Origin: Deltaproteobacteria bacterium
GTDB taxonomy: Bacteria; Desulfobacterota; GWC2-55-46
Assembly: GCA_016182655.1 (NCBI GenBank)
Contig: JACPGB010000017.1
Span: 1-64,000 of the forward strand
Direction of reading: 5' to 3'
DNA length: 64,000 bases
The first letter of the stretch is position 1, and each line of letters begins with the position of its first letter. Both the position numbers and the translations under genes were made by a program. Shown here in pieces: positions 7,339 to 63,512 of this stretch. Under the pieces are notes generated by a model, which was given only the letters and a program-made list of their open reading frames with translations, did no database searches and was not told the origin of the DNA.

Positions 7339-7983
7339 ATGGCCATCAAATATCTGAAGATCATTGGATTAGTGCTCGCAGGTTTTTTTCTGGGAGTGTG
7401 GGTTTGCTCTTATTTGGTACCTGACATTGGGGGAGAGCGTGATAAAGCGGCGCGCCTTGTTATGGAAGACGCATCTGTCTGGTTTATAGAAAAGGGTCTC
7501 TCGGAATATTATGATGGGAAAAGCTTGAAAAAGATCGCAGAGCGATTGGAAAAGAATGGGGCGCATTTGTCTACCTCTATTGTGATAGGCCGGAATGATG
7601 AGATGGCTGAGATAGCGCTTGAATATTATTGGGTCGGTGATTGGGTGCGTTGCTATACGCGAAAAGAATCAAAAGGGAAGATATATGAATATTGGGTAAT
7701 AAAAAGGAGTGCAAGACGCGATGATGTGAAAAAAGAAATATATTTTCTGGTGGCTGCGGCGGATAGTTTGAACAAAAAGAGGGAGATATTGCATCGCTCG
7801 GGAAGATTCTTTTCAAAGTATCTCTTGCCGGATAGGAGTTACCTGAACTTCCCGGTTGATGATGACCGTCAGATTTATAAGCTTAAACCCTGGAGGAGCT
7901 TTCCGGAGGCGTATGCCAATACGGAGCTGGAGGGGATAGAAGTGCGCTTTGAGAATGGCCGATATATCAGAAGGAAAAGGTGA
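7339..7983 (+). CDS. Hypothetical protein with N-terminal TM segment
   Basis: Open frame, N-terminal hydrophobic segment IIGLVLAGFFLGVWVCSYL. Confidence 0.55.
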   Translation: MAIKYLKIIGLVLAGFFLGVWVCSYLVPDIGGERDKAARLVMEDASVWFIEKGLSEYYDGKSLKKIAERLEKNGAHLSTSIVIGRNDEMAEIALEYYWVGDWVRCYTRKESKGKIYEYWVIKRSARRDDVKKEIYFLVAAADSLNKKREILHRSGRFFSKYLLPDRSYLNFPVDDDRQIYKLKPWRSFPEAYANTELEGIEVRFENGRYIRRKR

Positions 7984-8040
7984 TTGATATTCGTTGTGAG
8001 AACATTGGTAGGGGGAGTTAAAAAAAGAGAATACGGATTT

Positions 8041-8066
8041 GTCGGGTTACGCTACGCTAACCCGAC
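8041..8066. repeat. Palindromic repeat gtcgggtta-cgctacgc-taacccgac
   Basis: 9-bp inverted repeat; resembles a palindrome common in many bacterial genomes. Confidence 0.6.
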
Positions 8067-8114
8067 CTACAAGAAAAGGTATTCGCAAGCATGTGAAATA
8101 TGTTTTTGTTCATC

Positions 8115-8384
8115 GCGGGTTCAGGTTTGCAACCAGTAGTGTCCGGTAAAAATTGAAAATTTCTTTGAAAATATGGGGCCTTATCTGGCTCTTTTATTAG
8201 CCGGACAGCATGTAGTAACCCTTAAAATAGCTATAAGAGCCTATTTGCACAAAAGGTTTTTCCGGACAGCATATTTTGCCAAGACCTAACTTCTTGAAAA
8301 ATAAGCAATTTATTTTTCTCGATAAGCCTCTACCGATGAACTTGAAAATTTAACCGGACAGTAGTGGTTTGCAACCTGAACCCG
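8115..8384. repeat. REP palindrome copy 2, interrupted by a 231-bp insertion
   Basis: Left half 8115-8134 gcgggttcaggtttgcaacc, right half 8366-8384 ggtttgcaacctgaacccg. Confidence 0.8.
8135..8365. mobile_element. MITE-like non-autonomous element with inverted termini and 11-bp target duplication
   Basis: Termini agtagtgtccggtaaaaatt / aaatttaaccggacagtagt; flanked by direct repeats ggtttgcaacc (8124-8134, 8366-8376); no coding capacity. Confidence 0.75.
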
Positions 8385-8450
8385 AAAGTTCGTAATTCAA
8401 AACCAGTATGATATTCTAGATTGCAAGTACGACTAAAGAGCGCAAACAAT

Positions 8451-8951
8451 ATGCCTTCAATTAGAATATCAAAAGACGCCGTCTCTGATATTTATTTCCT
8501 TACCTTTACCGTCAAAAACTGGTATTACATATTCGACAGAAACAACCGCTTTGATATTCTAGCCGATTCAATAAAATATTGCCAAGAGCATAAAGGACTT
8601 AAGCTGTATGCTTATGTTTTTATGCTCAACCACATCCATCTGGTCGCCTCTGCGCCGGACATGGTCTCCTTTGCAAGGGACTTTAAAAAGTTTACCTCAA
8701 AGGCGATCCGGAAGAATATAATTGCAACGGAGCCGGACGCGCTCGGCCTTTTTGAGGGCGACAATGGGAAATATGAGTTCTGGGCAAAGACGAACATGCC
8801 CAAGGCCATTGAAAGCGAGCCCTACTTCCTGCAGAAGATCGACTATGTCCACAACAACCCTGTCCGCAAGCAATATGTACAAAGGCCGGAAGATTGGGTA
8901 TGGTCGTCCGCAAACCCTGACAGCAGTATAAAGACCGAGCCGCTATTCTGA
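8451..8951 (+). CDS. REP-associated tyrosine transposase (Y1_Tnp / IS200-like, RAYT)
   Basis: FMLNHIHLVASAPD (HUH motif), YVHNNPVRKQYVQRPEDWVWSSA; ORF can start at 8421. Confidence 0.85.
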   Translation: MPSIRISKDAVSDIYFLTFTVKNWYYIFDRNNRFDILADSIKYCQEHKGLKLYAYVFMLNHIHLVASAPDMVSFARDFKKFTSKAIRKNIIATEPDALGLFEGDNGKYEFWAKTNMPKAIESEPYFLQKIDYVHNNPVRKQYVQRPEDWVWSSANPDSSIKTEPLF

Positions 8952-8984
8952 CAAGGTCGCTGATATGAGGGATTACGAATTATA

Positions 8985-9010
8985 GGGTTCAGGTTACAAA
9001 CCTGAACCCG
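8985..9010. repeat. REP palindrome copy 3
   Basis: gggttcaggtt-aca-aacctgaaccc downstream of the RAYT gene. Confidence 0.85.
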
Positions 9011-9134
9011 CATGGAGACTGATTTAAATATCATTAGAGTCGTTATATAATCCCCCTCAGTCCCCCTTTAGAAAGGGGGGAAAATTTACATCGGACACTC
9101 CCATCAGAGTAAAAGAGAAAAGGGGGGGAACAAG

Positions 9135-9938
9135 GTGCGTGATATGAAGATAGGTTTTCTACAGACAAGGCCGGTATTCGGGGAAATAAAAAAGAACACC
9201 GAGAACGCGGCGGGTGAAATAGAAAGGCTCGATTGCGACCTCATCGTCCTCCCCGAGCTCTTCTCGACAGGATACCAGTTTCGTAACAAGGCGGAGCTAC
9301 TGAAACTCTCCGAGGAGATAGACGGCGGCTACGCCGTGGGGAGGCTCAAGGATATCGCCAAAAAGAAGAATATGCACATCGTAGCCGGGCTCGCGGAAAA
9401 GGAGGGGCGGAGGGCGTACAACTCTTCCGTCCTCATAGGCCCCAAGGGTGTCGTCGGCCTCTACAGGAAGGCGCACCTCTTCTGGGACGAGAGGAAGATC
9501 TTCACTCCCGGCGACAGGCCCCTTTCTGTCCATAAGGCGGGTAGGGCAAGGGTCGGGATGATGATATGCTTCGACTGGGTCTTTCCCGAGGTGGCGAGGA
9601 CTCTTGCGCTTCTCGGGGCGGACATAATATGTCAGCCTTCGAACCTCGTGCTCCCGTACTGCCCGGAGGCGATGAAGACCCGGTCCTTGGAGAACAGGGT
9701 TTTTTCTATCACCGCCAACAGGGTGGGGACAGAGGAGAGGGTGGCCGGCAAGCGTCTTAAGTTCATAGGTTCGAGCCAGATAGTAGCCCCGAACGGGGCC
9801 GTCCTTTACAGGGCCGGGGGGTGGAGGGTTGAAGCGAGGGTGGTGGAGGTAGACCCGAGGGATGCCCGAAGGAAGAAGATAACCCCGTTGAACGACATTA
9901 TTAAGGACAGGAGAGTAGACCTCTTTAAGCTTGGATAG
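9135..9938 (+). CDS. Carbon-nitrogen hydrolase (nitrilase superfamily amidase)
   Basis: LIVLPELFSTGY (Glu), YRKAHLFWDE (Lys), GMMICFDWVFPE (Cys) catalytic triad motifs. Confidence 0.88.
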   Translation: MRDMKIGFLQTRPVFGEIKKNTENAAGEIERLDCDLIVLPELFSTGYQFRNKAELLKLSEEIDGGYAVGRLKDIAKKKNMHIVAGLAEKEGRRAYNSSVLIGPKGVVGLYRKAHLFWDERKIFTPGDRPLSVHKAGRARVGMMICFDWVFPEVARTLALLGADIICQPSNLVLPYCPEAMKTRSLENRVFSITANRVGTEERVAGKRLKFIGSSQIVAPNGAVLYRAGGWRVEARVVEVDPRDARRKKITPLNDIIKDRRVDLFKLG

Positions 9939-9975
9939 GGTCGTTTTTTGTTGGTAGAAGGGCTGGGTTTTAATG

Positions 9976-10264
9976 CGACCCCTCCCAGCCTCCCCTTGTA
10001 AAAAGGGGAGGAGTTTAAACATCCCCTCCTTAACAAGGAGGGGCTAGGGGAGGTCGTATTTAAGGTCTGGATGGCGGGGCTCGTTAGTCCCTCCTATGGT
10101 TTTAATGTTGATGAAAAGGCAGGGATCAATACGACCCCTCCCAACCTCCCCTTGTTAAGGGGAGGAGTTAACTGGATTCCCGCTTTAAGTCCGCGGGAAT
10201 GACAAGATTGGCTTTGAAGGCTTTCACCCTCCCCTCTATCCCCTCCCGTCGAGGGAGGGAGGTT
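9976..10264. repeat. Array of four palindromic intergenic repeats
   Basis: acccctcccagcctccccttgtaaaaaggggagg; atcccctccttaacaaggagggg; acccctcccaacctccccttgttaaggggagg; accctcccctctatcccctcccgtcgagggagg. Confidence 0.75.
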
Positions 10265-10420
10265 TAAAAAGGGCTTTTATCATGAAACCGGCCCCATTGA
10301 TGCCGGAACCGTCTTGGCGTTATCTGCTTATAAAACAAATGGTTACGCCTTGATGTGTCCATCCCGGAGGCACTTCCCGCAGTTTGCTACCCGCAACTGT
10401 ATACAGTATACATTTTCCCC

Positions 10421-10449
10421 TTGACAAATCCTTGCGGTTGTTTTATCTT
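10421..10449 (+). promoter_or_regulatory. Putative sigma70-type promoter of the nuo operon
   Basis: TTGACA - 17 nt - TATCTT, 83 nt upstream of nuoA ATG. Confidence 0.55.
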
Positions 10450-10531
10450 GCCTTCTACCCTGACCGACCTTATCGTAACAATTAGCACTTTTTACAATAC
10501 TCCGTTGTAGAAACGACAAAGGGGTCTTACG

Positions 10532-10897
10532 ATGGTGTTTTCTTATCTCCCAGTGCTCGTGATGATCGGCATCGCGACCGTCATGGCCATCGGGGCCCTT
10601 TTCATGAGCTTCGTATTCCGCCCGAGAAACCCCTACAAGGACAAGCTTTCCCCTTGGGAGTGCGGCATGGAGCCCGTGGGTGAGGCCAACAAGGGCCACT
10701 TCAGGGTCCACTTCTTCGTTATCGCCATACTCTTCATCGTATTCGACGTCGAAACACTCTTCCTTTTTCCATGGGCCGTGATATTCACCGAAAAGGCCCT
10801 TTCCTCGTTTATTTTTGTTGAGATGGTGGTGTTCATCGCGATCCTCGCCGTCGGGCTCATCTACGCCTGGGTAAAGGGCGCGCTCGAGTGGGTTTAG
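10532..10897 (+). CDS. nuoA: NADH-quinone oxidoreductase subunit A
   Basis: FVFRPRNPYKDKLSPWECGMEPVG, VIFDVETLFLFPWAV. Confidence 0.95.
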   Translation: MVFSYLPVLVMIGIATVMAIGALFMSFVFRPRNPYKDKLSPWECGMEPVGEANKGHFRVHFFVIAILFIVFDVETLFLFPWAVIFTEKALSSFIFVEMVVFIAILAVGLIYAWVKGALEWV

Positions 10898-10959
10898 CAC
10901 GGCGTTTTTGTATTATTTTTAAAAACAACCACAACCTTAATATATAAAGCAAGGCTCTC

Positions 10960-11520
10960 ATGGACGAAAGAAACCCGCTCGAGGAGTCTCTACTCTTCAC
11001 GACCCTCGAGTCCATAGCGGACGTCATAAGGAACAACCCGCTCGTCAAGACGGTGAAGCACAACGCCGTAGTAGGCGACGTCGTCAACTGGGGGCGCTCA
11101 TCCGCCCTCTGGCCGATGACCTTCGGGCTGGCCTGTTGCGCCATCGAAATGATAGCGGCCGGGTGCTCGCGCTACGATACCGACCGTTTGGGGATCGTCT
11201 TCAGGCCCTCGCCCAGGCAGTCGGACGTGATGGTCGTCGCCGGGACAATGACCAAGAAGATAGCCCCGGCCGTAAAGAAGCTCTACGACCAGATGCCGGA
11301 GCCGAGGTGGGTCATAGCCCAGGGCGGGTGCGCCTCCGCCGGAGGGCCGTACAACACCTACGCGGTCGTCCAGGGCACGGACCTCGTCATCCCGGTCGAC
11401 GTATACATCCCGGGGTGCCCGCCGAGGCCGGACGCGTTGCTCTTCGGCTTCCTCCAGCTCATGGAAAAGATAAAGAAGGAAAACCCCTTCATACTTGAGG
11501 AGAGAAAGATCTCGTTATGA
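10960..11520 (+). CDS. nuoB: NADH-quinone oxidoreductase subunit B
   Basis: [59 protein letters not shown]. Confidence 0.96.
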
Positions 11521-12026
11521 AGCAGAACGACGAAGACCTCCTCGTAAAGAAGGTCAAGGACAACTTCAGGCACGACATCGTCGAGACGACCGTCTACAAG
11601 GGAGAGGTCACGCACCTCATCGACGTCAAGTCGCTCCGCGCGGTCTGCAACTTTTTGAAGACCGACCCGGACCTCAGGATGAACTTCCTCTGCGATGTCG
11701 TCGGCGTCGATTACTTCAAGGAGACGCCGAGGTTCGAGGTCGTCTATCACTTTTATTCCATCCAGAAAAAGCACCGGATAAGGATAAAGGTGAGGGTCGC
11801 CGAGAACGAAACGGTGCCGTCGGTTACGCACCTCTGGCCCGGGGCGGACTGGCCCGAGCGCGAGGTCTACGACATGTTCGGGATAGTCTTCGAGGGGCAC
11901 CCCGACCTTAAGAGGATATACCTGGCCCACGACTGGGTGGGGTATCCGCTAAGGAAGGACTATCCGTTACGGGGATACAAGGACAGGTATAACCCCTACG
12001 GCGAGGAGAAGCCGGAGGAGATCTGA
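11517..12026 (+). CDS. nuoC: NADH-quinone oxidoreductase subunit C
   Basis: [28 protein letters not shown]. Confidence 0.94.
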
Positions 12027-12172
12027 GATTCAGGGTGGCGAGCCTCCCCCTCACCCCCACCCTCTCCCGCAAGGGGAGAGGGAGATTGAAAGAGGAGAAG
12101 CCGGAGGAGATATAAGGCCCGGGATGGGCAATCTCCCCCACAACCCCGCCCTCTCCAGGGGGAGAGGGTGAT
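12003..12172. repeat. Duplicated nuoC 3' end with two palindromic repeats
   Basis: gaggagaagccggaggagat at 12003-12022 and again at 12092-12111; each followed by a ctcccccXXCccctctcc...ggggagaggg palindrome. Confidence 0.8.
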
Positions 12173-34822: not shown

Positions 34823-35914
34823 ATGGGATTCAACTGCGGCATCATAGGGCTCCCGAACGTCGGGAAGTCCACCATATTCAACGCCATGACGGCGGCCGGG
34901 GCAGAGGCCTCGAACTATCCGTTCTGCACCATAGACCCGAACATCGGGATGGTGCCGCTTCGCGACGACAGGATGCAGAAACTTGCCGCTCTGGTAAAGC
35001 CGGAGCGGGTCTTGCCGACGGCCGTCGAGTTCGTGGACATCGCGGGTATCGTCAAGGGGGCGTCCAAGGGCGAGGGGCTCGGTAACCAGTTCCTCGGGAA
35101 CATCAGGAGCGTAGACACCATTGCGCACGTCGTAAGGTGCTTCGAGGACCCGGGGATCGTCCACGTAGACGGAAGGATCGACCCCAGGGGCGACATAGAG
35201 GTGATAGAGACGGAGCTCATTCTCGCGGACATGGACTCGGTCGATAAAAGGCTCGATAAGGCCGCGCGTCTGGCCAAGATCGGGGACAAGGCCATGGCAG
35301 AGGCGCTTCCCGTATACAACGAGCTCAAGGCGGCGTTCGAGGCAGGGCGGCCGGCGAGGTCGGTCCTGACAAAAGAGACCGCGCTTATCGTGAAAGACTT
35401 GAACCTCCTTACGGCGAAGCCGATCATCTATGTCGCGAACGTGGGCGAGGACGACCTTGCCGGTACGTCGGAGGCGGCAAAGGCCGTAAGGGATGTCGCG
35501 GAAAAGGAGGGCGCGGGCTTTGTCGTGATATGCGGCAAGATCGAGTCCGAGATCGCCGAACTCTCCGAAGAGGAACGCGCCGAGTTCCTGAAAGGGCTCG
35601 GACTTAAGGAGTCCGGCCTCGACAGGCTGGCCGCCGCGGCGTACGGGTTGCTCGGCCTCATAACCTACTTTACGGCAGGCAAGAAAGAGGTGAGGGCCTG
35701 GACTGTCGAGCGCGACTCGAAGGCCCCGAAGGCCGCCGGGGTCATCCACAGCGACTTCGAGCGCGGTTTCATAAGGGCCGAGGTCATGGCGTACGAGGAC
35801 TTCGTAAAATACGGGTCTGAAGCCGCGTGCAAGGAAAAAGGGGTGTTGAGGGTAGAGGGCAAGGACTACATAGTCAAGGACGGCGATATAATGCACTTCA
35901 GGTTCAACGTGTGA
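34823..35914 (+). CDS. ychF: Ribosome-binding ATPase YchF
   Basis: MGFNCGIIGLPNVGKSTIFNAMTAAGAEASNYPFCTIDPNIGMV. Confidence 0.96.
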   Translation: MGFNCGIIGLPNVGKSTIFNAMTAAGAEASNYPFCTIDPNIGMVPLRDDRMQKLAALVKPERVLPTAVEFVDIAGIVKGASKGEGLGNQFLGNIRSVDTIAHVVRCFEDPGIVHVDGRIDPRGDIEVIETELILADMDSVDKRLDKAARLAKIGDKAMAEALPVYNELKAAFEAGRPARSVLTKETALIVKDLNLLTAKPIIYVANVGEDDLAGTSEAAKAVRDVAEKEGAGFVVICGKIESEIAELSEEERAEFLKGLGLKESGLDRLAAAAYGLLGLITYFTAGKKEVRAWTVERDSKAPKAAGVIHSDFERGFIRAEVMAYEDFVKYGSEAACKEKGVLRVEGKDYIVKDGDIMHFRFNV

Positions 35915-36249: not shown

Positions 36250-36513
36250 GTGGACAAGATAAGGATAGACCCGGACAAGTTCTATGGCGCTCTCAAGGGG
36301 AGCGGCGCCGAGGTAAGGCACCTTTTATGGCCGCTTGCCGACTTAAACCCCAGGGAGAGGTCCGTCTTTACGGAATACCATTACTGGAACACCCACATGA
36401 AAGTGATCGCTACGAGCCACAGAATCTCACTCGGGAGGGCATATGAGATACTCTACAGGGCAGAGGAGAAGGTCGCGTCTTCAAGGACACAGGAGGAGGA
36501 GAAGGACCTTTGA
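36250..36513 (+). CDS. Sigma-region-4/ArpU-like HTH protein, possible phage transcription regulator
   Basis: LNPRERSVFTEYHYWNTHMKVIATSHRISLGRAYEILYRAEEKV. Confidence 0.55.
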   Translation: MDKIRIDPDKFYGALKGSGAEVRHLLWPLADLNPRERSVFTEYHYWNTHMKVIATSHRISLGRAYEILYRAEEKVASSRTQEEEKDL

Positions 36514-42884: not shown

Positions 42885-43112
42885 GTGATCATAATGCTCT
42901 GCAAAACAACAGGCGGCGGCTCCATAGCCGTGCAGGAGATAGACGGCTCGCCGTCCATAACGGGCGTCAAGACGCTCAAGTTCAACAACGGCTCGGTGAC
43001 CGATTTGGGCGGCGGCGCGGTGCAGGTGAAGATAAACGACAACTTTGACGGTGGAAATTTCGCGGACACGTACATCGCGTCTGCCGCCGATTGGGACGGA
43101 GGTAGTTTCTAA
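42885..43112 (+). CDS. Small phage structural protein
   Basis: VQVKINDNFDGGNFADTYIASAADWDGGSF. Confidence 0.5.
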   Translation: MIIMLCKTTGGGSIAVQEIDGSPSITGVKTLKFNNGSVTDLGGGAVQVKINDNFDGGNFADTYIASAADWDGGSF

Positions 43113-45307
43113 TGGCTCTATGGCAGGCTAAGAGAGGGACGAAGGCGCAACTTCCGAACCCGCTTCAGCAGGGCGAGTTCGGCTGGTGTACCGACACGAA
43201 GGAGCTTTACCTCGGGACAGGCACCGCAAACGACAACCAGAGGGTCTACGGCGCGGCCATTTCTACCCCGTTCACTATCTATGTATGCACGACGGCATTG
43301 GGCGGAAGGCTTAAATCCGCAGGCGCGAACGGCCTTGCCATGAGGTCATCGCAAGCGACCTCGACCATTGCCAATAAGCTCGTCGATTCGGGGGCGTCGT
43401 TTGACTCGACCTATCTAAACAAGACCGTCTACAACAAGACCGACGACACCTGGGCGAAGGTGACGACTGTGGTCTCTACGACACAGCTCACCCTCGATGC
43501 CGATATCATGGCTTCGGGTGAAAGCTACGACATAGCGAACGCCCTATCGACCGTGGCGGAAGGCTTTGCCGAAGTCCCGAACCCGTTCTACGCCAACATC
43601 ACGGTGCGCGTCTCCCCAGGCACGTTTGCCGAGTCCGTCGCCTTTGTCGGCAAACTCGCGGCAGGGAGCTTTGACAATATCCTCCAGGGCTCGACGACCG
43701 GGACTACTACCATATCGAACGGGACTGCGAATGTCTCGCAGAAACTCACCGTTAACAATATCACATTCTCGGGCGGGAAGATAAACCTCAACCCCGGCGC
43801 GATACTTACATGGTCGAACTGTCCCCTTACGAATGTCCGCGTGAACGCATACAACACGGCGGACGCGACCTGGGACAACTGCGACATGACGGGGACCTCC
43901 AAGCTCTATACCTACATCGGCTCGCGGTCCCTCATCAAGAACTCGACCGTGACCGTCGGCAACGACCCCACGAACATCACGGCCGTCTCCTCGACTATCA
44001 CGAGAGGGTACACGCTCTATGTGGCCTTGAACTCGGGTCCTTTTTATGGCGGTAATGACGCCATGGCAGATGGCCTCCAGATAGCGGCTGGGACCGCTAC
44101 TTCGACGACGGCGAACAAGCTCATTGATTCCGCCGCCTCCTTTACATCCGACATGGTCGGGAAGACCGTCTATAACTCGACTGACGACACATGGACTTAT
44201 ATAACCGCAGTGGACTCAACGACTCAGCTCTCGCTCTATCAAAACATCATGGCCTCCGGGGAGGCGTATGTAATAGCCAACGCCTTTGTCACGGTGAACG
44301 CGGCATTAGCCGCAGTGCCAGGCACATTCAACTGCAATACGACCTTGAAAATCTCGGACGGTACTTTCACCGAGAATGTGGTCGTGCAGGGCAAGGCACC
44401 GGGCGGGCCTTATACGCTCACACTCGAGGGGACGCTCACGCTCCTTGATTCTCTCACGGCATCTTCCGGCGCACAGGGCTCAAGCGCGACTCAGGGGACG
44501 GTCGTAAGGAACTCTGGCACGTGGACGGCGAACCAGAGGGCTAATAAGCTTGTGACTATAACCTTGGGCGATAACAACGGACTCTCCAGAATAATCGACT
44601 CGAACGATACGACGACCTTGACGATTGCGGGATGCTGGATAGCAACTGTGGGGACGTCGACTTTCAAAGTATTCGATTGGGGGACGGTGATAGACGGCTC
44701 TTCGACCGGCACGGGGATAAAGCTTGCCTCCGGACAGAGGGCGGTTGCGCTCAAGAAGCTCAAAATGACGAACTCGGCCGGGGCGTACCCGGATTATGAG
44801 TCGGTCTACATGGATACGGGTTCGCAGGCGGAGTTTCATGACTGCTGGTTCTATGTAGGGTCCGGCCCGATTTACGGGATATATCAGGAGCCCTACAGCA
44901 AATCGTTCATATACAGGTGCTTCTTCGGAGATTCCAACGCCAGGGGCATCTTCTGCGTGACTGCGGCTTCCGACATCTGGCAGTCGAAGTTCTACAACGC
45001 CACGGCGGGCAACACCCATGTCGGGATAAGGTCTACGCAGTTAGGCAAGGTAATCGTCTCCAGGGGTACCATCATCGACAACTTCGACAATACTGTAGGC
45101 GGGGGGTGCTACGCCGACCAGAACAGTATCCTTGTCTTCTATACGGCCGCGGCCGACGGGTTCAGCATCGTGCGGAATTGCGGCACCTACGGCATAGCGG
45201 CAACCGAGGGGTCGAGGATAAAGTTCAACCAGTCCGCGACCTATGTGACCTATTCCGGCAACGGCACGAACACCTACGCCGACGCCTCATCGACAAAGGA
45301 TTACTAA
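43112..45307 (+). CDS. Phage tail fibre-like protein, repeat-containing
   Basis: Start MALWQAKRGTKAQLPNPLQQGEFGWCTDTKELYLGTG typical of phage fibre; beta-rich; duplicated internal module. Confidence 0.7.
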   Translation: MALWQAKRGTKAQLPNPLQQGEFGWCTDTKELYLGTGTANDNQRVYGAAISTPFTIYVCTTALGGRLKSAGANGLAMRSSQATSTIANKLVDSGASFDSTYLNKTVYNKTDDTWAKVTTVVSTTQLTLDADIMASGESYDIANALSTVAEGFAEVPNPFYANITVRVSPGTFAESVAFVGKLAAGSFDNILQGSTTGTTTISNGTANVSQKLTVNNITFSGGKINLNPGAILTWSNCPLTNVRVNAYNTADATWDNCDMTGTSKLYTYIGSRSLIKNSTVTVGNDPTNITAVSSTITRGYTLYVALNSGPFYGGNDAMADGLQIAAGTATSTTANKLIDSAASFTSDMVGKTVYNSTDDTWTYITAVDSTTQLSLYQNIMASGEAYVIANAFVTVNAALAAVPGTFNCNTTLKISDGTFTENVVVQGKAPGGPYTLTLEGTLTLLDSLTASSGAQGSSATQGTVVRNSGTWTANQRANKLVTITLGDNNGLSRIIDSNDTTTLTIAGCWIATVGTSTFKVFDWGTVIDGSSTGTGIKLASGQRAVALKKLKMTNSAGAYPDYESVYMDTGSQAEFHDCWFYVGSGPIYGIYQEPYSKSFIYRCFFGDSNARGIFCVTAASDIWQSKFYNATAGNTHVGIRSTQLGKVIVSRGTIIDNFDNTVGGGCYADQNSILVFYTAAADGFSIVRNCGTYGIAATEGSRIKFNQSATYVTYSGNGTNTYADASSTKDY

Positions 45308-46543
45308 ATGGTAAAGATACTCGCAATAGGTCACTCGATAGTGATGGGGGACGAGGACAACATCGATTCCCCGTACAGGGCGGACTCGTCAACGGCCCCG
45401 CACATCCCCGAGGGCGGCTGGAGGTATCAGAACTTTCAGGTCGCGCCGAGATGGGGGCAGAGGAACCAGAACCCGGCCGAGGGCGTGGGCTGGGCCGTGC
45501 GCGCCCTCGACTATCTGCCTGCGGGCTCGATACAGGTATGGAACGAGGGTGTCTCCGGGGTCGTCTCGTATGACTGGGCCACGACCGGCAATGATTTCAT
45601 AGGCCAGATATTTACGAGGGGGTTTGAACAGCTCCCGGCAGACCTCGCCTACGCGGTCTACGCCATCTACGCGAACGACGCCCCGGCATCGGTGACAAAG
45701 GCCAACTGGAAGGCGCGGGTCGAGACGGTAATCCAGTACCTTGATGCAAGGAACATAAAGACCATTCTTGTTAAGGACTGGCACAGGGGCGACGGAGATT
45801 ATTCGTCATATTACGCAAATTACAACGCGGCGGTCGACGAGCTTATCGCGGCCTATGGTCTCCCCCCGGCATTTGACATGTACACGGCCTCGCTTGATAA
45901 CTTCAACGGGGCAAAGGATTGGTACAGTGTAGATAACGTCCACCCGGTCGTGGCAGGCCACCAAGGGGTTGCTAAGCTCTTTGCGAATTACCTCGTCACG
46001 AACCACATCGTCGCGGACTCGACGGCAAAGAGGATAATAGCGCATGGGGAGACGGGAGCCGTCGTCTACTGCACGGTGACGAGGGAGGCGGACGGCTATA
46101 TCCTCGACGGATATTCCGGGGAGTTTGCGGCCTCAAGCGACTACCCTTATACCTTCCTTCAGGAGCATCCGACGATAAAGGGCCGCTACGAGATAGCCGA
46201 GACAAGGACCGCGTGGAACGACGGGAAGTATGTCGTGACGGTCTATAAGCAAGCGGGAGCGGACCCGGCTCCGGTGAGCGATGCCGTCATTGCGAGTGGG
46301 GAGATGAAGGTCGAGAACGATATCGAGGTCGAGGAGATAACCCTCTCCGAGATCGAGGGGTCGGCGGTGCTGGCGAAGGAGGGGACGATAGCGTTCATAG
46401 AGAAGTGGGTCTTGAACAGGCTCTCCATAACCGTGAACGGCGACGGCACAGAGACCGTCAGACTCTATGACAACGACGGCTCGACCGTATTGAAGACATG
46501 GACATGGGACCCGGCGACGAAGACGAGGGCGATGGCAGTATGA
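45308..46543 (+). CDS. SGNH/GDSL hydrolase-type virion protein
   Basis: ILAIGHSIVMG (block I-like), NDAPA, DNVHPVVAGHQGVAKLF (DxxH). Confidence 0.7.
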   Translation: MVKILAIGHSIVMGDEDNIDSPYRADSSTAPHIPEGGWRYQNFQVAPRWGQRNQNPAEGVGWAVRALDYLPAGSIQVWNEGVSGVVSYDWATTGNDFIGQIFTRGFEQLPADLAYAVYAIYANDAPASVTKANWKARVETVIQYLDARNIKTILVKDWHRGDGDYSSYYANYNAAVDELIAAYGLPPAFDMYTASLDNFNGAKDWYSVDNVHPVVAGHQGVAKLFANYLVTNHIVADSTAKRIIAHGETGAVVYCTVTREADGYILDGYSGEFAASSDYPYTFLQEHPTIKGRYEIAETRTAWNDGKYVVTVYKQAGADPAPVSDAVIASGEMKVENDIEVEEITLSEIEGSAVLAKEGTIAFIEKWVLNRLSITVNGDGTETVRLYDNDGSTVLKTWTWDPATKTRAMAV

Positions 46544-48277: not shown

Positions 48278-49366
48278 ATGGCCAATAACAAGATATACAT
48301 CGCTATAGGGGAAGAGGCGGCGAGGGGGACGAAGGAGTCGACGACCGTCGGGTTCGTGCCTGTTTTAAGCCCGTCTATCCCGAAGTTCGAGTTCGACGAG
48401 AAGAAGCGGAGCGAGTTCAGGGGAGAGGAATCGGTAAAGGGCGCGTCGTCGTACGAGCGCATGGGGCAGAGGTGGAGCTCCTCTCTCGATATGCCCTTCT
48501 ATACCGAGTCCGGCTCCACAAAGGGGATGGTGGGGAAGATATTGAGGCACTTCTTCGGCAAGGTGACATCCGGGCAGAACGGGGCGACGGGCCAGTACTA
48601 TCATATGGCTTACCCGGAGGCAGACCCGTTTTCGGACGCGAACCTCGGGACAAAGGCCCTGACGCTGAACTTCAACATAAACGAGGGCGCGGCGATGAAG
48701 AACTGGCCGTTTGTCGGCGGCAGGGTCAAGGCCCTCTCGTTTGTCCAGGAGGCCGGAAGCCCCCTTAAGCTTACGGCAGAGCTCTTCGGGCAGAAGAGGG
48801 ATACGCCTTCCGCTGAAGTCGGAACCCCCGTATTCGCTGACGAGGCTTTAAGGTGCGACTACAATAACCTTACGGTCTATACCGGGGCGATCACCCGGAC
48901 AGGCGCGGCCCCTGACTTTACAGGGTTCTCGTTCGGCTCGGCGACTATCATAAAGCCTGACAAGATAACGGTCAAGATAGAGAACGGGATGAAGGACGTC
49001 TTGAGGATCGCGGGCGTCGATTATCCGGACAAGACCCGGATGGGGCAGTTCAAGGTGACGGCGGAGCTCACGATAGATTGGGAGGACCCGGCATCGGGGT
49101 TTTCGTCGATATCCGAGTTCAACGACTGGGCGGCGGGGGGGAGCTCGACGAACCTCTTTCTCAAGTGGGACACCGGCACGCAGGCCGGGGCCGGGGATAG
49201 CCACGGGCTCTTTATCGACCTCCCGGCTTTAAGGAGGCTCGGCGGCTCGCCCGATTACGGGACGGACAAGGACCCGATGATAACGCTCAAGTACGAGGGA
49301 TTGTTGAGCATTGACACCGGGTACATAGCCGGGGTCATGCTCAAAAATACCGTGGCGGTTATATAG
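48278..49366 (+). CDS. Major tail (tube)-like protein
   Basis: MANNKIYIAIGEEAARGTKESTTVGFVPVLSPSIPKFEFDEKKRSEFRGEESVKGASS; position upstream of chaperone frameshift pair. Confidence 0.65.
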   Translation: MANNKIYIAIGEEAARGTKESTTVGFVPVLSPSIPKFEFDEKKRSEFRGEESVKGASSYERMGQRWSSSLDMPFYTESGSTKGMVGKILRHFFGKVTSGQNGATGQYYHMAYPEADPFSDANLGTKALTLNFNINEGAAMKNWPFVGGRVKALSFVQEAGSPLKLTAELFGQKRDTPSAEVGTPVFADEALRCDYNNLTVYTGAITRTGAAPDFTGFSFGSATIIKPDKITVKIENGMKDVLRIAGVDYPDKTRMGQFKVTAELTIDWEDPASGFSSISEFNDWAAGGSSTNLFLKWDTGTQAGAGDSHGLFIDLPALRRLGGSPDYGTDKDPMITLKYEGLLSIDTGYIAGVMLKNTVAVI

Positions 49367-49548: not shown

Positions 49549-49923
49549 ATGGCGATAATATCGTTCGACAAAGAGGCCCTTATAGATTATGTACCCGCGT
49601 ACGCGGGGAACAGGGAGAGCGCGGACCCGTGTGTCGTGAAGCTTAAGTTCTGCCCGTACTCGCGGGTGCAGCATTACTCGCGCCTGATAGCAACGAGGGC
49701 CAAGGGCGGGGGCGACAACCTCAAGCTCGCCGAGGTCGGGCAGGAGATCCAGAAGAGGCAGTTCGTCGAGAACGTGGAGGGGGTCTCCAACTACTTCGTC
49801 GAAGGTGTCGAGGTGCGCGACCCCGAGAGATTCTATGATACGGCGGACACCGACCTCATACTCGAGGTGATAAAGGCGATGGAGTCTGGCGCGAAGCTCT
49901 CAGAAGGTCAAATAAAAAACTGA
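49549..49923 (+). CDS. Tail assembly chaperone, zero-frame product (gpG-like)
   Basis: 124 aa, ends at slippery A_AAA_AAC directly followed by TGA. Confidence 0.75.
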   Translation: MAIISFDKEALIDYVPAYAGNRESADPCVVKLKFCPYSRVQHYSRLIATRAKGGGDNLKLAEVGQEIQKRQFVENVEGVSNYFVEGVEVRDPERFYDTADTDLILEVIKAMESGAKLSEGQIKN

Positions 49924-50339
49924 CAGCGGGCTTCCGCCTGAGCCTGCTGGCGGCAAGGGACGGAAGCCCATTCGATTGCGGGAGATGCGGCCCCAGGGAC
50001 CGGACGCAGAGAAATTGCGGAAACTCGCTGGGTTTGTCGGAGGCGGCAAAGGCGGTCTTCAATTACACGGAAGATGTCGCCGGGGAGCTCAAGGCAAAGG
50101 GGGCCGAGAAGGTCTTCAGCCTCCGGGGCTTGAGGCTATACGAGTGCCCCTTGAGCTTTATTACCTGGGAGACTCGGGAGATGATAAGGGCGGTCTACCT
50201 GATGGAAAGCGGGGGAAGGCTCTTTTTCAGCGGCGGGTGGGGCGACCAGAGCGCGTGGCTTGTCGAGGCGTTCGAGATATTCAGGGCAGAAAATGCGGCG
50301 TTCAGGAAGGATGTGGCGGATGGCGAAAGGGCAGGATAG
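49549..50339 (+). CDS. Tail assembly chaperone frameshift fusion (gpGT-like), -1 PRF at 49914-49920
   Basis: -1 frame is open from 49920 to 50339 (LTAGFRLSLLAARDGSPFDCGRCGPRDRTQRNCGNSLGLSEAAKAVFNYTEDV...); stem 49928-49936/49961-49969. Confidence 0.75.
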
Positions 50340-51277: not shown

Positions 51278-51310
51278 GGGTGTCTACATTAAATGATTTT
51301 GGAGGGTAAG

Positions 51311-52057
51311 ATGAAAAAAATAATATTATTGATGGTTTTTCTTTTGACAACAGCCGGGTGCACGGTAACTCACAAGATCATGATAGGCGAGCGGTTTGCG
51401 GCGGTGGTCCCTGAGAAGGTCTTATTTATTAAAGAACCAGCTACGGATGGCAAGGGGTTCGTTGCTTTGAAACCTGTATTGTTTGAAATCGAAGGGGTTG
51501 AATGCGGTCAGGGCAAAAAAGATGTGGAGTGCATATTAGAGTTGGATGAGAAACAAAATTTGAAAGATGCAGATACGATATTTTATAAAATAAAAATCGA
51601 GCGTAAAGATACCGGATATATCACGGCAGACTATTTTTTCGACCATAGATTTTCCAGGTATCTTCTGCCGCTTGGTCCTAAAAACCAGATCGGATATTTT
51701 GCCCGAGCGGCTACCGCCTTTGATATCAAGACCGATTACGACACGATGTGGAGGGTCGTCGTGGACAGTATCGATGAGCTCGGGTATGTGTCTGCCCAGA
51801 TGAAGAAAGAGGACGGATACATAGAGACCTATATAAAAAATGACGGGGACACGAGGAGCAAACTGAGCGCGAGGGTCTCAAGACAGGATGAGTACATGTT
51901 AGTCATCGTAAACGCCAATTCAGAGAATCTGTTGAAGACAAAGGAACACAAGCTCTGGTACGACAACGGCCAGAGCGGCATTTATGCGGAAAGGCTTCTG
52001 GACAAGATACGGTTGAAGTTCTTTGTGATGCACAGGATGAATGAATCAAAGCCGTAG
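51311..52057 (+). CDS. Lipoprotein A1 (novel prophage-encoded paralogue family)
   Basis: MKKIILLMVFLLTTAGC lipobox; IMIGERFAAVVPEKVLFIKEP; BamC-like C-terminus YDTMWRVVVDSIDELGYVSAQMKKEDGYIET. Confidence 0.75.
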   Translation: MKKIILLMVFLLTTAGCTVTHKIMIGERFAAVVPEKVLFIKEPATDGKGFVALKPVLFEIEGVECGQGKKDVECILELDEKQNLKDADTIFYKIKIERKDTGYITADYFFDHRFSRYLLPLGPKNQIGYFARAATAFDIKTDYDTMWRVVVDSIDELGYVSAQMKKEDGYIETYIKNDGDTRSKLSARVSRQDEYMLVIVNANSENLLKTKEHKLWYDNGQSGIYAERLLDKIRLKFFVMHRMNESKP

Positions 52058-52123
52058 AGGACTTTTATTAAGAGGAGACAAAAAGGCGCAAACCTTTCAT
52101 GTCATAAGAACAGGAAGCCGAAT

Positions 52124-52894
52124 ATGAGAAAACTTATATTATTATGCGCTGTTTTTTTGATCCTTATCTGCTCGTGCACATATATTCCGACTATTCCGAC
52201 TCATAACTTTATGATCGGGGAGCGGTATGCGGCTATCGTGCCTGAGAAGGTCCTTTTCTTCAAAGGACCTTCAAATAATACAGAACCTTTCAGGATGGAG
52301 AAACCTGAAGAGTTTGTAATCGAAGGGGTGGAGTGTACCATAAGGACAGAGAAAGGGGATTGTCCATTCGATTTCAATATACGGGCGGGCATGCCGAATA
52401 ACGCTTGTGATGTTTTTTATAGGGTCAGGCTTGAAGAGGAAGGGACGGCTTATTTAAGCGCTCTCTATATTTTCAGCCAAAAAATATCAGGGTTTTTGCT
52501 CCCGCTCGGGCCAAAGAGGGAGCAGAGCTGGGGAGACGATACTTTCGAGGTAAGGGCCGGTTTTGATGAGATGTGGGATATTGTGATAAGGGCGGTCCAC
52601 GACCTCGGATATACGATATCCCAAGTGAGAAAAGAGGATGGATATTTATCAACCCATACCCAAGACGAGGGTGAATTCAGGAGCCGCATGGCTATCTGGC
52701 TTACAATGAACGGAGATTACTCGAGGATAGAGGTAGATGCCACATCGGAACAGCGATATCGTACAAAGGACAAGATTACCGGCGAGGTGCATGTTTCCTG
52801 GTACGGAGGAGGCAAGTCAAGGTACTATCAATATCAATTTCTGGATAAGGTACGGCAGAGGCTGTGGGCGTCTTATAAAGAGGCTAAGAAATAA
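52124..52894 (+). CDS. Lipoprotein B1
   Basis: MRKLILLCAVFLILICSC lipobox; FMIGERYAAIVPEKVLFFKGP; FDEMWDIVIRAVHDLGYTISQVRKEDGYLST. Confidence 0.75.
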   Translation: MRKLILLCAVFLILICSCTYIPTIPTHNFMIGERYAAIVPEKVLFFKGPSNNTEPFRMEKPEEFVIEGVECTIRTEKGDCPFDFNIRAGMPNNACDVFYRVRLEEEGTAYLSALYIFSQKISGFLLPLGPKREQSWGDDTFEVRAGFDEMWDIVIRAVHDLGYTISQVRKEDGYLSTHTQDEGEFRSRMAIWLTMNGDYSRIEVDATSEQRYRTKDKITGEVHVSWYGGGKSRYYQYQFLDKVRQRLWASYKEAKK

Positions 52895-52914
52895 AATATG
52901 GGAGTGAACGATGG

Positions 52915-53023
52915 CCAAGCGCTTCATTATAAACAAAGGTTACTGGACAGGATACTGGGGAAGTTTTTTGAGCTACACAGGTCGGCTGACCCCAAGCCGC
53001 AGAGGGCCGATCAGGTAGATTAA
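52915..53023 (+). pseudogene. Truncated A-type lipoprotein remnant (C-terminus)
   Basis: DGQALHYKQRLLDRILGKFFELHRSADPKPQRADQVD* matches A2 DGWAFQYKERLLDKIKWKFFELHRMDEAAQ. Confidence 0.75.
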
Positions 53024-53071
53024 GCCTTTCTGATCGTTAGGCAGGACCTTTAAACGATTTTGGAGGGTAAG

Positions 53072-53824
53072 ATGAAAAAAATAATATTATTGGCTATTTT
53101 ACTTTTAATCTCCACCGGGTGCTCGATTACTGTAACCCATAAAATGATGGTAGGCGAGGAGTTTGCCCTGATCGTCCCAGAGAAGATCGCTTTCAGCAAA
53201 ACCCCATCTGCGGATGGAGAGACTTTTTTTGCCTGGAAACCTGTAAGTTTCGTAATAGAGGGGGTTGAATGCGGCCAGGGCAAAAAGGATGGGGAATGCA
53301 TCTTGGATTTGGATGAGAACAAAAGACTCAAAGATGTCAAAACCGTTTTCTATAAAATAAAGCTTGAAAACTGTATACCCGGATATATCGCGGGGGATTA
53401 TTTTTTCGACCCTGATTCGTTGAAGTATTTCATCGATATCGGGCCGAAATATCAGATCGGGTACGCCGCGCGCCAGACCAATTATTTTGATGTCAAGACC
53501 AGTTACGACAGAATGTGGCGGGTCGTCAGGAACAGTATAGACGAGCTCGGGTATGTCATGTCCCAGATGGACAAAGAGGACGGGTACATGACGACAAATA
53601 TTAAAAATGACGGGGACACGAGGAGCAAATTGAGCGTCTGGCTATCAAAACATGGTGAGTACATTGAGGTCACTGTGGGCGCCAGATCGGAGCATCTGTT
53701 TAAGACGCAGCAATATAAACGATGGGAACCCGATGGCTGGGCGTTTCAGTATAAGGAAAGGCTGCTGGACAAGATAAAATGGAAGTTTTTTGAGCTTCAC
53801 AGGATGGACGAGGCGGCGCAGTAG
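53072..53824 (+). CDS. Lipoprotein A2
   Basis: MKKIILLAILLLISTGC lipobox; paralogue of A1 along its length. Confidence 0.75.
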   Translation: MKKIILLAILLLISTGCSITVTHKMMVGEEFALIVPEKIAFSKTPSADGETFFAWKPVSFVIEGVECGQGKKDGECILDLDENKRLKDVKTVFYKIKLENCIPGYIAGDYFFDPDSLKYFIDIGPKYQIGYAARQTNYFDVKTSYDRMWRVVRNSIDELGYVMSQMDKEDGYMTTNIKNDGDTRSKLSVWLSKHGEYIEVTVGARSEHLFKTQQYKRWEPDGWAFQYKERLLDKIKWKFFELHRMDEAAQ

Positions 53825-53859
53825 GAATTCCTAAGGAGAGCCACCTGGCACAAGACACT

Positions 53860-53894
53860 GGATTCCCGCTTAAGGCACGCGGGAATGACGAAAT
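53860..53894. repeat. Chromosomal-type palindromic repeat ggattcccgctt..gcgggaatgac
   Basis: Same element as 10173-10205. Confidence 0.7.
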
Positions 53895-53996
53895 AGTTTT
53901 GCGGATCAATTCCTGAGTAGGATTATGTAAAGGTCTTTTTAAGAGGTGGAATAACAAGGCGCAAACCTTTCATGTCATAAGAACAGAAAGCCGAAT

Positions 53997-54749
53997 ATGA
54001 GAAAACTTATATTATTATGCGCTGTTTTTTTGATCCTTATCTGCTCGTGCACATATATTCCGACTATTCCGACTCATAACTTCATGATAGGAGAGCGATA
54101 TGCCGTTATCATACCCGAGAAGGTCCATTTGCTAAAGCGGCCCTCGGCCAATGCAGAACCTTTCGAGGTGGAGAGGCCCGAAGAGTTTGTAATCGAAGGG
54201 GTGGAGTGCACCATTAGGACTGAGAAAGGCGATTGTCCGTTAGATGCCAAAACCTCCAAAGACGTTTTCTACAGGATCAGGTTTGAAGGGGGAGAGGAGG
54301 CCTTTTTAAGAACTTTTTATATTTTCGGGCGGGGGACATCAGGCTATCTGCTCCCGCTCGGGCCAAGAAGGGAGCAGAACTGGAAAGGAGAGGATACCTT
54401 CGAGGTAAGGGCCGGTTTTGATGAGATGTGGGATATTGCGGTCAGGGCGGTCCATGACCTCGGTTATACGATAACCCAGATGAGAAAAGAGGATGGTTAT
54501 CTATCGACCGATACCAGAGAAGAAGGCAACAGCAGAAGCCGCCTGGCCGTCTGGCTTTCGATGGACCGGTTTTACGCGAGGGTAGAGGTCGATGCCACAT
54601 CGGAGTATCGAAGTCGGACAAAGGACAGGACGACCGGGCAGGAGCAAGTCTCTCCCTGGTACGAAGGCGGCAAGTCATATTACCAATATCAATTTATGGA
54701 CAGGATACGGCAGAGGTTGTGGGCGTCTTATAAAGAGGCGAAGAAATAA
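53997..54749 (+). CDS. Lipoprotein B2
   Basis: Signal peptide identical to B1; paralogue along its length. Confidence 0.75.
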   Translation: MRKLILLCAVFLILICSCTYIPTIPTHNFMIGERYAVIIPEKVHLLKRPSANAEPFEVERPEEFVIEGVECTIRTEKGDCPLDAKTSKDVFYRIRFEGGEEAFLRTFYIFGRGTSGYLLPLGPRREQNWKGEDTFEVRAGFDEMWDIAVRAVHDLGYTITQMRKEDGYLSTDTREEGNSRSRLAVWLSMDRFYARVEVDATSEYRSRTKDRTTGQEQVSPWYEGGKSYYQYQFMDRIRQRLWASYKEAKK

Positions 54750-60394: not shown

Positions 60395-60817
60395 ATGACG
60401 CCGGTCATAGGGGACCTGATAACTAATACAGTCGGCAAGGTCGTGGGGAAGCTTGCGGACAGGTATCTGCCTTCCACGATGGGCGAGGTCGAGAGGGCCG
60501 AGTTCCAAAAAGAGGCTGAGAGGCTCGCACTCGAGGAGTACAAGACAGCCGTACAGGATGTTGCTACGGCGAGGGAGCTTGCAGGAAAGGAGAGCGACGG
60601 CGCGCCTGGCTGGACGAAGGTGCTGACGGTTACTCACAGGCCGGCGTGGAGTTTCCTCGTGCTCGGGATATTCGCCTGGACCATAGCCGCGCCGTACGCG
60701 GGTTTTCCGGCCTTTCCGTTGACAGAGGTCCACAAGGAAGTCATGCAGACGGTCATCATATTTTATTTCGGCGGCAGGTCGATTGAGAAGGCGGCCGGGA
60801 TTGTGTGGGGAAAATAA
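60395..60817 (+). CDS. Phage holin (3-TM family-like)
   Basis: GAPGWTKVLTVTHRPAWSFLVLGIFAWTIAAPYAGF... VIIFYFGGRSIEKA. Confidence 0.7.
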   Translation: MTPVIGDLITNTVGKVVGKLADRYLPSTMGEVERAEFQKEAERLALEEYKTAVQDVATARELAGKESDGAPGWTKVLTVTHRPAWSFLVLGIFAWTIAAPYAGFPAFPLTEVHKEVMQTVIIFYFGGRSIEKAAGIVWGK

Positions 60818-60997: not shown

Positions 60998-61204
60998 ATG
61001 GGCAGAAGCCTTATAATCATCGGAATTGTAATCGTAATCGTCGGGATAATCTTCACACTAGCTCCGAAGGTCCCGTTTCTCGGCAGGCTTCCGGGCGACA
61101 TCTTGATAAAAAGGGACAACTTCGTATTCTACTTCCCGCTCTCAACCTCCATAATAGTCAGCGTGGTACTCTCCCTCATATTTTACTTCTTCACAAGGCG
61201 CTGA
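60998..61204 (+). CDS. DUF2905-family membrane protein
   Basis: MGRSLIIIGIVIVIVGIIFTLAPKVPFLGRLPGDILIKRDNFVFYFPLSTSIIVS. Confidence 0.85.
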   Translation: MGRSLIIIGIVIVIVGIIFTLAPKVPFLGRLPGDILIKRDNFVFYFPLSTSIIVSVVLSLIFYFFTRR

Positions 61205-61318
61205 GCCGGGACGGGGAAATGTTGCAAAAAAGAGATTTATACCCGGTCTGTTGCATTTATAATACAAATTTGAGCGTTATTGGTTTTACTAACTCTTTGA
61301 ATTGATTGGACTCTGACT

Positions 61319-62278
61319 ATGGCACATATATTGCTTAATATATCCGGCATGAACGGCATCAGGATGCAAAAAACGATAAACAATAAGATAGAGTTCTCCG
61401 GCATAGGCCTTCACACCGGGCATGAGATACGTGTGCGGATATTGCCTGCCAACGAAGATACCGGGATAGCATTCGTCAGGACTGACGTCCCCTCATCCCC
61501 CGTCATAAGGGCGGGCGCTGAGAACGTCGTGGCCACGAGCTACGCGACGACACTCGGAAGAAAAGGCGTGACGGTCTCGACTGTCGAGCACCTCCTTGCC
61601 GCGTTCTACGGGCTCGGGGTAGACAACGCCCGTGTCGAGCTCGACGGCCCCGAGGTGCCTATCATGGACGGCTCGGCCTCCGAGTTCATCTCCATGATAG
61701 AGTCTGCGGGTCTTAAGGACCTTTCATCCCCGAAGAAGTATCTCGTCATAAAAGAGCCGATAAGGGTCGCCGACCGCGACAAGTTCGTCGAGATAGCGCC
61801 TTCCGAGGACGACGAGTTCACGGTCGACTACTCGATAGACTTCGCCCATCCGTTCATCACCAAGCAGTCGTTCTCAGGGCTATTCTCAGGGGACGTCTTC
61901 AGGGAAGGTGTGGGCAGGGCCAGGACCTTCGGGTTTTTGAGCGACTACGAGATGCTCAAGAAAAACGGGCTTGCCAAGGGCGGCTCCCTCGATAACGCCA
62001 TAGTCATTGGAGACAACGAAATACTGAACGAAGAGGGCTTGAGATACCCGGACGAGTTTGTAAGGCACAAGGTATTGGACCTCATGGGCGACATCTCCCT
62101 CCTCGGTTTCACGGTGATAGGGCAACTCAAGGCCCACAGGTCAGGGCACGCACTCAACTTCAAGCTCGTCCAGGAGATACTCAAGTGGCCCGAGAGCTGG
62201 GTCTTGACCGAGGCCCCCTCTAAAGAAGAAAGCGCGCGCGCCGCATGCCCGCTTGTCGAGAAGATGGCGACCGTCTGA
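61319..62278 (+). CDS. lpxC: UDP-3-O-acyl-N-acetylglucosamine deacetylase
   Basis: IEFSGIGLHTGHEIRVRILPA, TVEHLLAAFYGLGVDNARVELDGPEVPIMDGSA, DEFVRHKVLDLMGD. Confidence 0.95.
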   Translation: MAHILLNISGMNGIRMQKTINNKIEFSGIGLHTGHEIRVRILPANEDTGIAFVRTDVPSSPVIRAGAENVVATSYATTLGRKGVTVSTVEHLLAAFYGLGVDNARVELDGPEVPIMDGSASEFISMIESAGLKDLSSPKKYLVIKEPIRVADRDKFVEIAPSEDDEFTVDYSIDFAHPFITKQSFSGLFSGDVFREGVGRARTFGFLSDYEMLKKNGLAKGGSLDNAIVIGDNEILNEEGLRYPDEFVRHKVLDLMGDISLLGFTVIGQLKAHRSGHALNFKLVQEILKWPESWVLTEAPSKEESARAACPLVEKMATV

Positions 62279-62297
62279 AGCGCCGCTGATATTTGAA

Positions 62298-62330
62298 TCA
62301 AAGCCCCTTTTCAGGGGCTTTTTTTATTTG
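62298..62330 (+). terminator. Rho-independent terminator after lpxC
   Basis: aaagccccttttcaggggcttttttta. Confidence 0.85.
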
Positions 62331-62492
62331 GTGGAACCCTGGTGGATTGCGGCGTTGCAAGTCCCCCTCGGGGATTGCCGACTAAACCATAAATTGCAAA
62401 ACCACCTGAAATATGTTAATATTTTAGGGCGTTATTAATAAGGATTGCTTTCTAAAAAATCATGGCTTCCATGAAAGCTCCGAACTGATACC

Positions 62493-63512
62493 ATGGCAAA
62501 CAAGGTAAAACCGGGTTTGGACACCAACGGGAAGACAAAAAAACAGCTAAACCTTGAGGACAACTCCGTCGCCCTTCGGCTATTCGGAGAGGGCGGCGAG
62601 AACTTGAGGAGGATCGAGAAAAAGCTCGGGGTGGAGCTCAACACCAGAGGCTCGCTCGTGACCATTTCCGGCGAGAGTAGCAAGCTGGAGCTTGCCGAAA
62701 GGCTCCTCCTTGAGCTCTACGGCCTCCTCGAAAAGGGTTATCCCCTCTACCAGCACGATATCGAATACGCCATCCGCATGGTCTCCGCCGACTCATCCGT
62801 CCGCGTCTCCGACGTCTTCATGGACGCCGTCTATACGTCATACAGGAAAAAGATAATAGCCCCGAAGAGTGTCGCGCAGAAGAGGTACGTGGACTCGATA
62901 CGGAGGCACGACGTCGTCTTCGGCATAGGCCCGGCCGGTACAGGGAAGACCTATCTCGCCATGGCCATGGCTGTGGCGGCTCTCACTTCAAAGGCCGTTG
63001 AGAGGATAATACTCACCCGTCCGGCCGTCGAGGCCGGAGAGAAGCTCGGGTTCCTACCCGGCGACCTCGCCGCCAAGGTCGACCCGTATCTTCGTCCACT
63101 GTATGACGCGCTCCACGACATGATAGATTACGAGAAGGCTGAAAAGTACCTCGAGAGGGGCGCGATAGAGGTTGCGCCTCTTGCCTTCATGAGGGGCAGG
63201 ACGCTGAACGATTCGTTCGTCATACTCGATGAGGCACAGAACACCACGACCGAGCAGATGAAGATGTTTCTTACGCGCCTCGGCTTCGGCTCAAAGGCCG
63301 TGATCACCGGCGACATAACTCAGATAGACCTCCCGCTCGCCAAGCCCTCGGGGCTCGTCGAAGTCCAGAAGATACTCGCAGGGGTCGAGGGGATCGAGTT
63401 CGTGGTATTCTCCGAGGCGGATGTGGTGAGGCACCCGCTCGTGCAGAAGGTCGTCAAGGCATTCGAGAAGGCCGAGTCCAGGAAAAAAGGGACTGTCCTG
63501 GAGGAGGCTTAA
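62493..63512 (+). CDS. PhoH family ATPase (YbeZ-like)
   Basis: [70 protein letters not shown]. Confidence 0.93.

Follow-up and report, generated by a model that had tools for sequence, protein, structure and literature searches.

A phage structural cluster between host genes

The window analyzed here, a 64,000-nt stretch of a contig from a Deltaproteobacteria bacterium, carries a cluster of phage head, tail, and lysis genes that is flanked on both sides by host genes (Table 1). Upstream, the core host genes are prs, rplY, pth, a gene for an H+-PPase, and ychF. We recognized no integrase, repressor, or replication gene within the cluster. In the tail module, the order is tail tube, ORF A, a -1 frame extension referred to here as domain B, and a tape-measure-like gene. 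The tube gene was identified by its profile match and the tape-measure-like gene (∼307 aa in one relative) by position only, with no significant match among Pfam and PHROG profiles.

Table 1. Features of the window, with the basis for each assignment
Feature	Position	Strand	Basis
Host ychF, upstream flank	34823-35914	+	Pfam; common to family f1 and genome G263
Head-tail-lysis cluster	36250-60817	+	Pfam/PHROG content, gene order
terS	37462	+	Cluster gene
terL	37820	+	Cluster gene
Portal	39108	+	Cluster gene
Scaffold	40747	+	Cluster gene
Capsid	41420	+	phrog_544 match; weak Phage_capsid_4 match
Major tail tube protein	48278-49366	+	PF18906 Phage_tube_2, E 9e-13
ORF A, 0 frame, 124 aa, putative tail assembly chaperone short form (gpG-like)	49549-49923	+	Directly 3' of tail tube gene
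Slippery heptamer A_AAA_AAC	49914-49920	+	0 frame; invariant, 40/40 distinct junctions
0-frame stop TGA	49921-49923	+	Adjoins heptamer 3' end
-1 frame extension, ∼139 aa, putative long-form (gpGT-like) frameshift-only domain B	49920-50339	+	Conserved from residue 1
Stem 5' arm GGGCTTCCG	49928-49936	+	9 pairs, 97.4% of cells paired (39 sequences)
Stem 3' arm CGGAAGCCC	49961-49969	+	Arm codons limited to pair-keeping ones
Short tape-measure-like gene, 306 aa	50320-51240	+	Position after chaperones; overlaps -1 frame end
M15 peptidase	59782	+	Cluster gene
Holin-like ORF	60395-60817	+	Sub-threshold PF11351 GTA_holin_3TM, 21.6 vs 24.8 bits, E 3e-4
Host DUF2905, lpxC, phoH, downstream flank	60998-63512	+	Pfam; families f1, f4, part of f2

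At the head of the cluster, a small ORF (36250-36513) resembles sigma-70 region 4 (PF04545, E 0.002, below the cut-off) and is ∼60 to 79% identical across the order, making it a candidate regulator of the cluster. The interval from 43112 to 46543 holds large genes that resemble those for receptors or depolymerases, among them one that encodes a GDSL-lipase domain; the compact clusters found in other genera lack these genes, and in some genomes the whole cluster is just ∼14.5 kb. Four tandem lipoprotein-like paralogues of ∼250 aa (51293-54749) separate the tape-measure-like gene from the tail gene that follows and have relatives in some clusters only. The one that we scanned had no Pfam match.

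Distribution and inheritance of the cluster

Of 59 related genomes searched, 33 had a relative of the tail tube gene; of 395 genomes from across the phylum, 8 had a relative of the B region, and these 8 belong to the same order. A GTDB-wide scan with ORF A yielded 27 loci, all from uncultured MAGs and nearly all named "Deltaproteobacteria." Of the order's 48 genomes, 32 carry the capsid gene, almost always as a single copy.

Wherever the contig reaches, the cluster in family f1 lies between ychF and DUF2905/lpxC/phoH, although such synteny is limited by the nature of the hosts, which are MAGs subject to contig joins and variable completeness. In four genomes that had seemed to lack the cluster (G396, G397, G322, and G220), the contig ends within it, shortly past ychF, and a fifth, G263, retains a deletion remnant at the same ychF-lpxC site. 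In this remnant (L152, G263:C14:1-19000, approximately 7930-12172), the head genes up to the N terminus of TerL are followed by the holin, between ychF and lpxC. The host flanks identical across one family and the deletion footprint at the same site both argue against an ordinary prophage that integrates repeatedly, or the remnant of one, as does the absence of an integrase from the window's contig; the integrase-family matches of this genome are on other contigs. An lpxC or phoH flank was also found in G421 (family f4) and in G425, G427, and G422 (family f2), whereas four f2/f5 genomes share another upstream neighbor, a difference in flank that weighs toward a prophage.

Host and cluster trees, both built with FastTree, have 12 of 25 splits in common, where permutation gave at most 3, and pairwise host and cluster distances are correlated (Mantel r of 0.72, a value reached in 0 of 2,000 permutations). 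Both results favor inheritance with the chromosome, whereas supported host-cluster conflicts at some deep branches, where nodes are poorly resolved, fit better with a prophage. Among close pairs, dS of cluster genes falls in the same range as that of flanking host genes (mostly 0.4 to 0.7 in both for G000/G395), again unlike the expectation for repeated integration. Values of omega in the cluster are mostly 0.04 to 0.3, indicating purifying selection; dN/dS of the tape-measure-like gene and of the gene at 57289 was excluded for G197/G415 because the alignment failed.

Some related elements are mosaic and have only the tail module in common with the cluster. They include viral contigs as well as the second copies in G403_C32 and G415_C1, and their existence counts in favor of a prophage and makes some exchange with phages possible. 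The viral contigs (L071, L075, L076, and L077) carry the same tube, chaperone pair, and tail proteins with other head genes. Taking all of this together, we consider the ordinary prophage an unlikely explanation, though one that retains some weight. The original prediction had passed over this aspect of the locus, which looks like a vertically inherited, GTA-like one. The cluster shows two features of GTAs: its phage structural genes lie in the chromosome unaccompanied by genes for lysogeny or replication, and it is maintained vertically within a group of hosts, with purifying selection acting on it. Judged from sequence, the cluster has the pattern of a GTA-like, vertically inherited element in an uncultured order, and it may serve to package and transfer DNA.

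A conserved slippery site and stem at the end of ORF A

ORF A, which is 124 aa long in nearly all homologues and has a conserved C terminus (...EGQ(R/I)KN), ends in ATA AAA AAC TGA. From the sequence of the window, the original prediction had described a heptamer in phase before this stop, a 9-bp stem beginning 7 nt past the heptamer, and a -1 frame open from 49920 through an ORF called at 50034-50339, and had read these as a programmed -1 ribosomal frameshift. The coordinates of the heptamer and of both stem arms proved exact. In the -1 frame, no stop interrupts the sequence from 49839 until a TAG at 50337-50339. Conservation of the heptamer and stem in homologues, proposed at the time as a check, was found for both, and the frameshift reading is now supported by an invariant heptamer, by covariation in the stem, and by conservation of the protein encoded in the -1 frame.

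The forward strand of the window contains AAAAAAC just six times, and the heptamer is in frame at all 40 distinct homologous junctions, a set pooled from genome loci and viral contigs. At these junctions, TGA or TAA follows the heptamer directly or TAG follows one codon on. The Lys codon at the slip is AAA in 40/40, although AAA makes up 30% of Lys codons elsewhere in the same genes, so the heptamer is far beyond chance; the codon preceding the slip likewise has A as its third base in 40/40, compared with 15% of Arg codons elsewhere. Because the sequences are related, simply multiplying these codon frequencies would not yield a true probability, although the bias clearly points one way. Among further relatives, AAAAAAC is retained at ∼30% identity (L079) and is present without an adjoining stop in L075; the distant L077 has AAATTTTTTG (A_AAT_TTT) in its place, and the remote L080 has G_GGA_AAC. 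In most homologues, a Shine-Dalgarno-like GAGG run (49898-49908 in the window) lies 5 to 7 nt 5' of the heptamer. It is possibly a second stimulator, but its significance is ambiguous because it overlaps the conserved EGQ codons.

A stimulatory RNA structure within 5 to 9 nt downstream is expected of -1 frameshift sites, and the 9-bp stem here starts at 7 nt and covaries. The segment from 49921 to 49975 has an MFE of -29.1 kcal/mol (z = -3.1), and 1 of 200 shuffles was equally stable. We scored conservation of the stem over 351 pair cells in 39 sequences, with the 3' arm anchored by the protein alignment. Standard pairs filled 97.4% of cells, compared with 95.1% in shuffles and ≤64% when the arms were slid, two-sided changes occurred at three pairs, and the observed value of each of five stem measures was reached by 0 of 500 shuffles. 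One compensatory change, C-G to G-C, replaces TTC by TTG in one arm and GGA by GCA in the other and thereby alters both encoded amino acids, so that selection on the RNA can be separated from selection on the protein. Further pair changes are C-G to U-A, U-A to C-G, and, in L031, C-G to G-C. Codon choice in the arms is restricted in the same direction, with Ser as AGC in 27/27, Ala as GCG in 25/25, and Arg as CGN in 29/29 cases, compared with 30%, 41%, and about 32%, respectively, elsewhere. The suggestion that the stem might form part of a pseudoknot was not borne out: the longest complementary runs between the loop and downstream sequence came to 7.0, compared with 6.9 in shuffled sequence, giving no signal beyond chance.

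A conserved protein domain in the -1 frame

The coding part that is reached only by frameshifting spans 49920-50336. Its aligned products read L-x-A-G-F-R-W ... G-S-P-F-x-C-x2-C-x9-C (in RNC)-x-N ... R-L-Y-E-C-P, where the cysteines C20, C23, C33, and C76 are the same in all 41 sequences, and omega of the -1 frame is 0.12 to 0.25 in four close pairs. The CGRCGPRDRTQRNC stretch, singled out earlier as unusual, forms the conserved core of this domain. A second copy of the locus in G415 (L065), which is divergent and lies away from the ychF site, has lost the conserved C terminus of the -1 frame, suggesting decay.

These data bear directly on whether B is instead an independent gene, translated from TTG at 50034 or by re-initiation past the TGA with no frameshift. 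A mechanical ORF finder does return 50034-50339, and the stop of ORF A is near B, but conserved protein, including three invariant cysteines, is encoded upstream of 50034. No ATG or GTG occurs in the -1 frame of the window between the slip and 50181, and 20 of the 40 homologues lack any ATG, GTG, or TTG in the stretch from the slip to RNC; in the rest, such codons are scattered. Conservation from the first residue past the slip, the lack of a conserved start, and the low omega together identify the TTG ORF as an artifact, as originally suspected. An independent B would also leave the invariant heptamer and the covarying stem unexplained, and we regard it as very improbable. Equally improbable is transcriptional slippage at the A-run, with frame-shifted mRNAs in place of ribosomal slippage: all homologues have a six-A run at the site, but efficient polymerase slippage would generally call for a longer run than six A's, ribosomal slippage alone accounts for the C that follows, the heptamer phase, the adjoining stop, and the stem at a fixed 7 nt, and the distant relative L077 has another sequence at the site.

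We are highly confident in a programmed -1 frameshift of a tail-assembly-chaperone pair within a vertically inherited, probably GTA-like cluster. From the anatomy, conservation, and covariation of the junction, we infer that most ribosomes on ORF A would end at the TGA and release a chaperone of 124 aa. The 9- to 10-bp stem 7 nt downstream would make a minority pause and slip by -1 on the heptamer, with tRNA-Lys and tRNA-Asn re-pairing with AAA AAA, and these ribosomes would read on to produce a fusion of ∼262 aa that carries the four-cysteine extra domain. On the lambda model, the short product would serve as a coat for the tape measure, with the long one bringing in tube subunits.

AlphaFold predicted domain B with a mean pLDDT of 94 and A with one of 78. 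Neither A nor B, nor B as an alignment, had a significant match among Pfam and PHROGs profiles, and a fold search of the PDB with A and B returned nothing below E 1. A viral fold search with B gave just unnamed partial matches (best E, 0.09), and B matched none of 50,697 phage records. With no profile model and no match to a solved structure, the chaperone role is based on gene order and on the frameshift itself. The four-cysteine domain, with its C-x2-C-x9-C ... YECP arrangement, is possibly metal binding.

Comparison with known systems

Likeness to lambda gpG/gpGT lies in a short ORF between tube and tape measure (here by position) with the slip site at its end and a downstream ORF that lacks its own start, from which low-level production of the fusion is expected. 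The lambda heptamer is G_GGA_AAG. Here, in contrast, the heptamer is A_AAA_AAC, the stem is strong and covarying, the long form has four cysteines, and the protein families are unrelated by available profiles. The proposed match to lambda holds for gene order and mechanism, and sequence comparison with Pfam and PHROGs placed neither A nor B in a described chaperone family; the type of frameshift is already known, and the protein family is one without a Pfam or PHROG model. Conserved -1 frameshifting of dsDNA phage tail assembly genes, including gpG/gpGT, was described by Xu, Hendrix, and Duda (2004, as cited in PMC5009743). By description, the same heptamer as here, A_AAA_AAC, is used in the g-t frameshift pair of the haloarchaeal virus HCTV-2, whose host is archaeal (PMC5009743). 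In E. coli, A_AAA_AAC was reported to be less shift prone than A_AAA_AAG (PMC5009743), and efficiencies of ∼7% are given for two tail-chaperone examples (PMC3711429).

RcGTA and RcGTA-like clusters of Alphaproteobacteria resemble this one in being chromosomal head-tail clusters without lysogeny or replication genes and in being order-wide, mainly vertically inherited, and under purifying selection (PMC11409702, PMC6821227). RcGTA also has two tail chaperone genes, g10 and g10.5, and a putative pair is likewise found here. Homology to RcGTA was not detected: g10 carries PF11836 (PMC11409702), whereas neither A nor B (alone or as an alignment) matches it, and the holin has just a sub-threshold match to PF11351. 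The capsid also differs, matching phrog_544 and only weakly Phage_capsid_4, as does the host lineage. A further parallel is Dd1, which is phage-like and is found in Desulfovibrio desulfuricans, historically a member of the Deltaproteobacteria; the likeness is by description (PMC11409702). Dd1 is among the five GTA types in the literature (PMC11409702), and we found no published description of the present cluster as a GTA in the open-access literature. On sequence grounds, we lean toward a GTA distinct from these five types and vertically inherited in an uncultured "Deltaproteobacteria" order.

Implications

The finding confirms a widespread phage mechanism in a protein family that is new and whose long form carries a four-cysteine domain. 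What is unusual is the preservation of the frameshift signal at a fixed chromosomal locus. Because the gene pair sits in a structural cluster that passes down with the chromosome and keeps its place there, selection acting on the host lineage would maintain the signal, probably for the production of GTA-like particles, and the vertical, purifying-selection pattern implies that the frameshift product is needed. A conserved signal that sets the ratio of two products is useless in a dead prophage, and its preservation at a fixed site argues that this uncultured lineage still assembles phage-like particles. If the cluster is a GTA, a frameshift signal intact across families of the order would be evidence that functional tails are still being built, and conserved signals of this kind could mark functional domesticated particles in MAGs.
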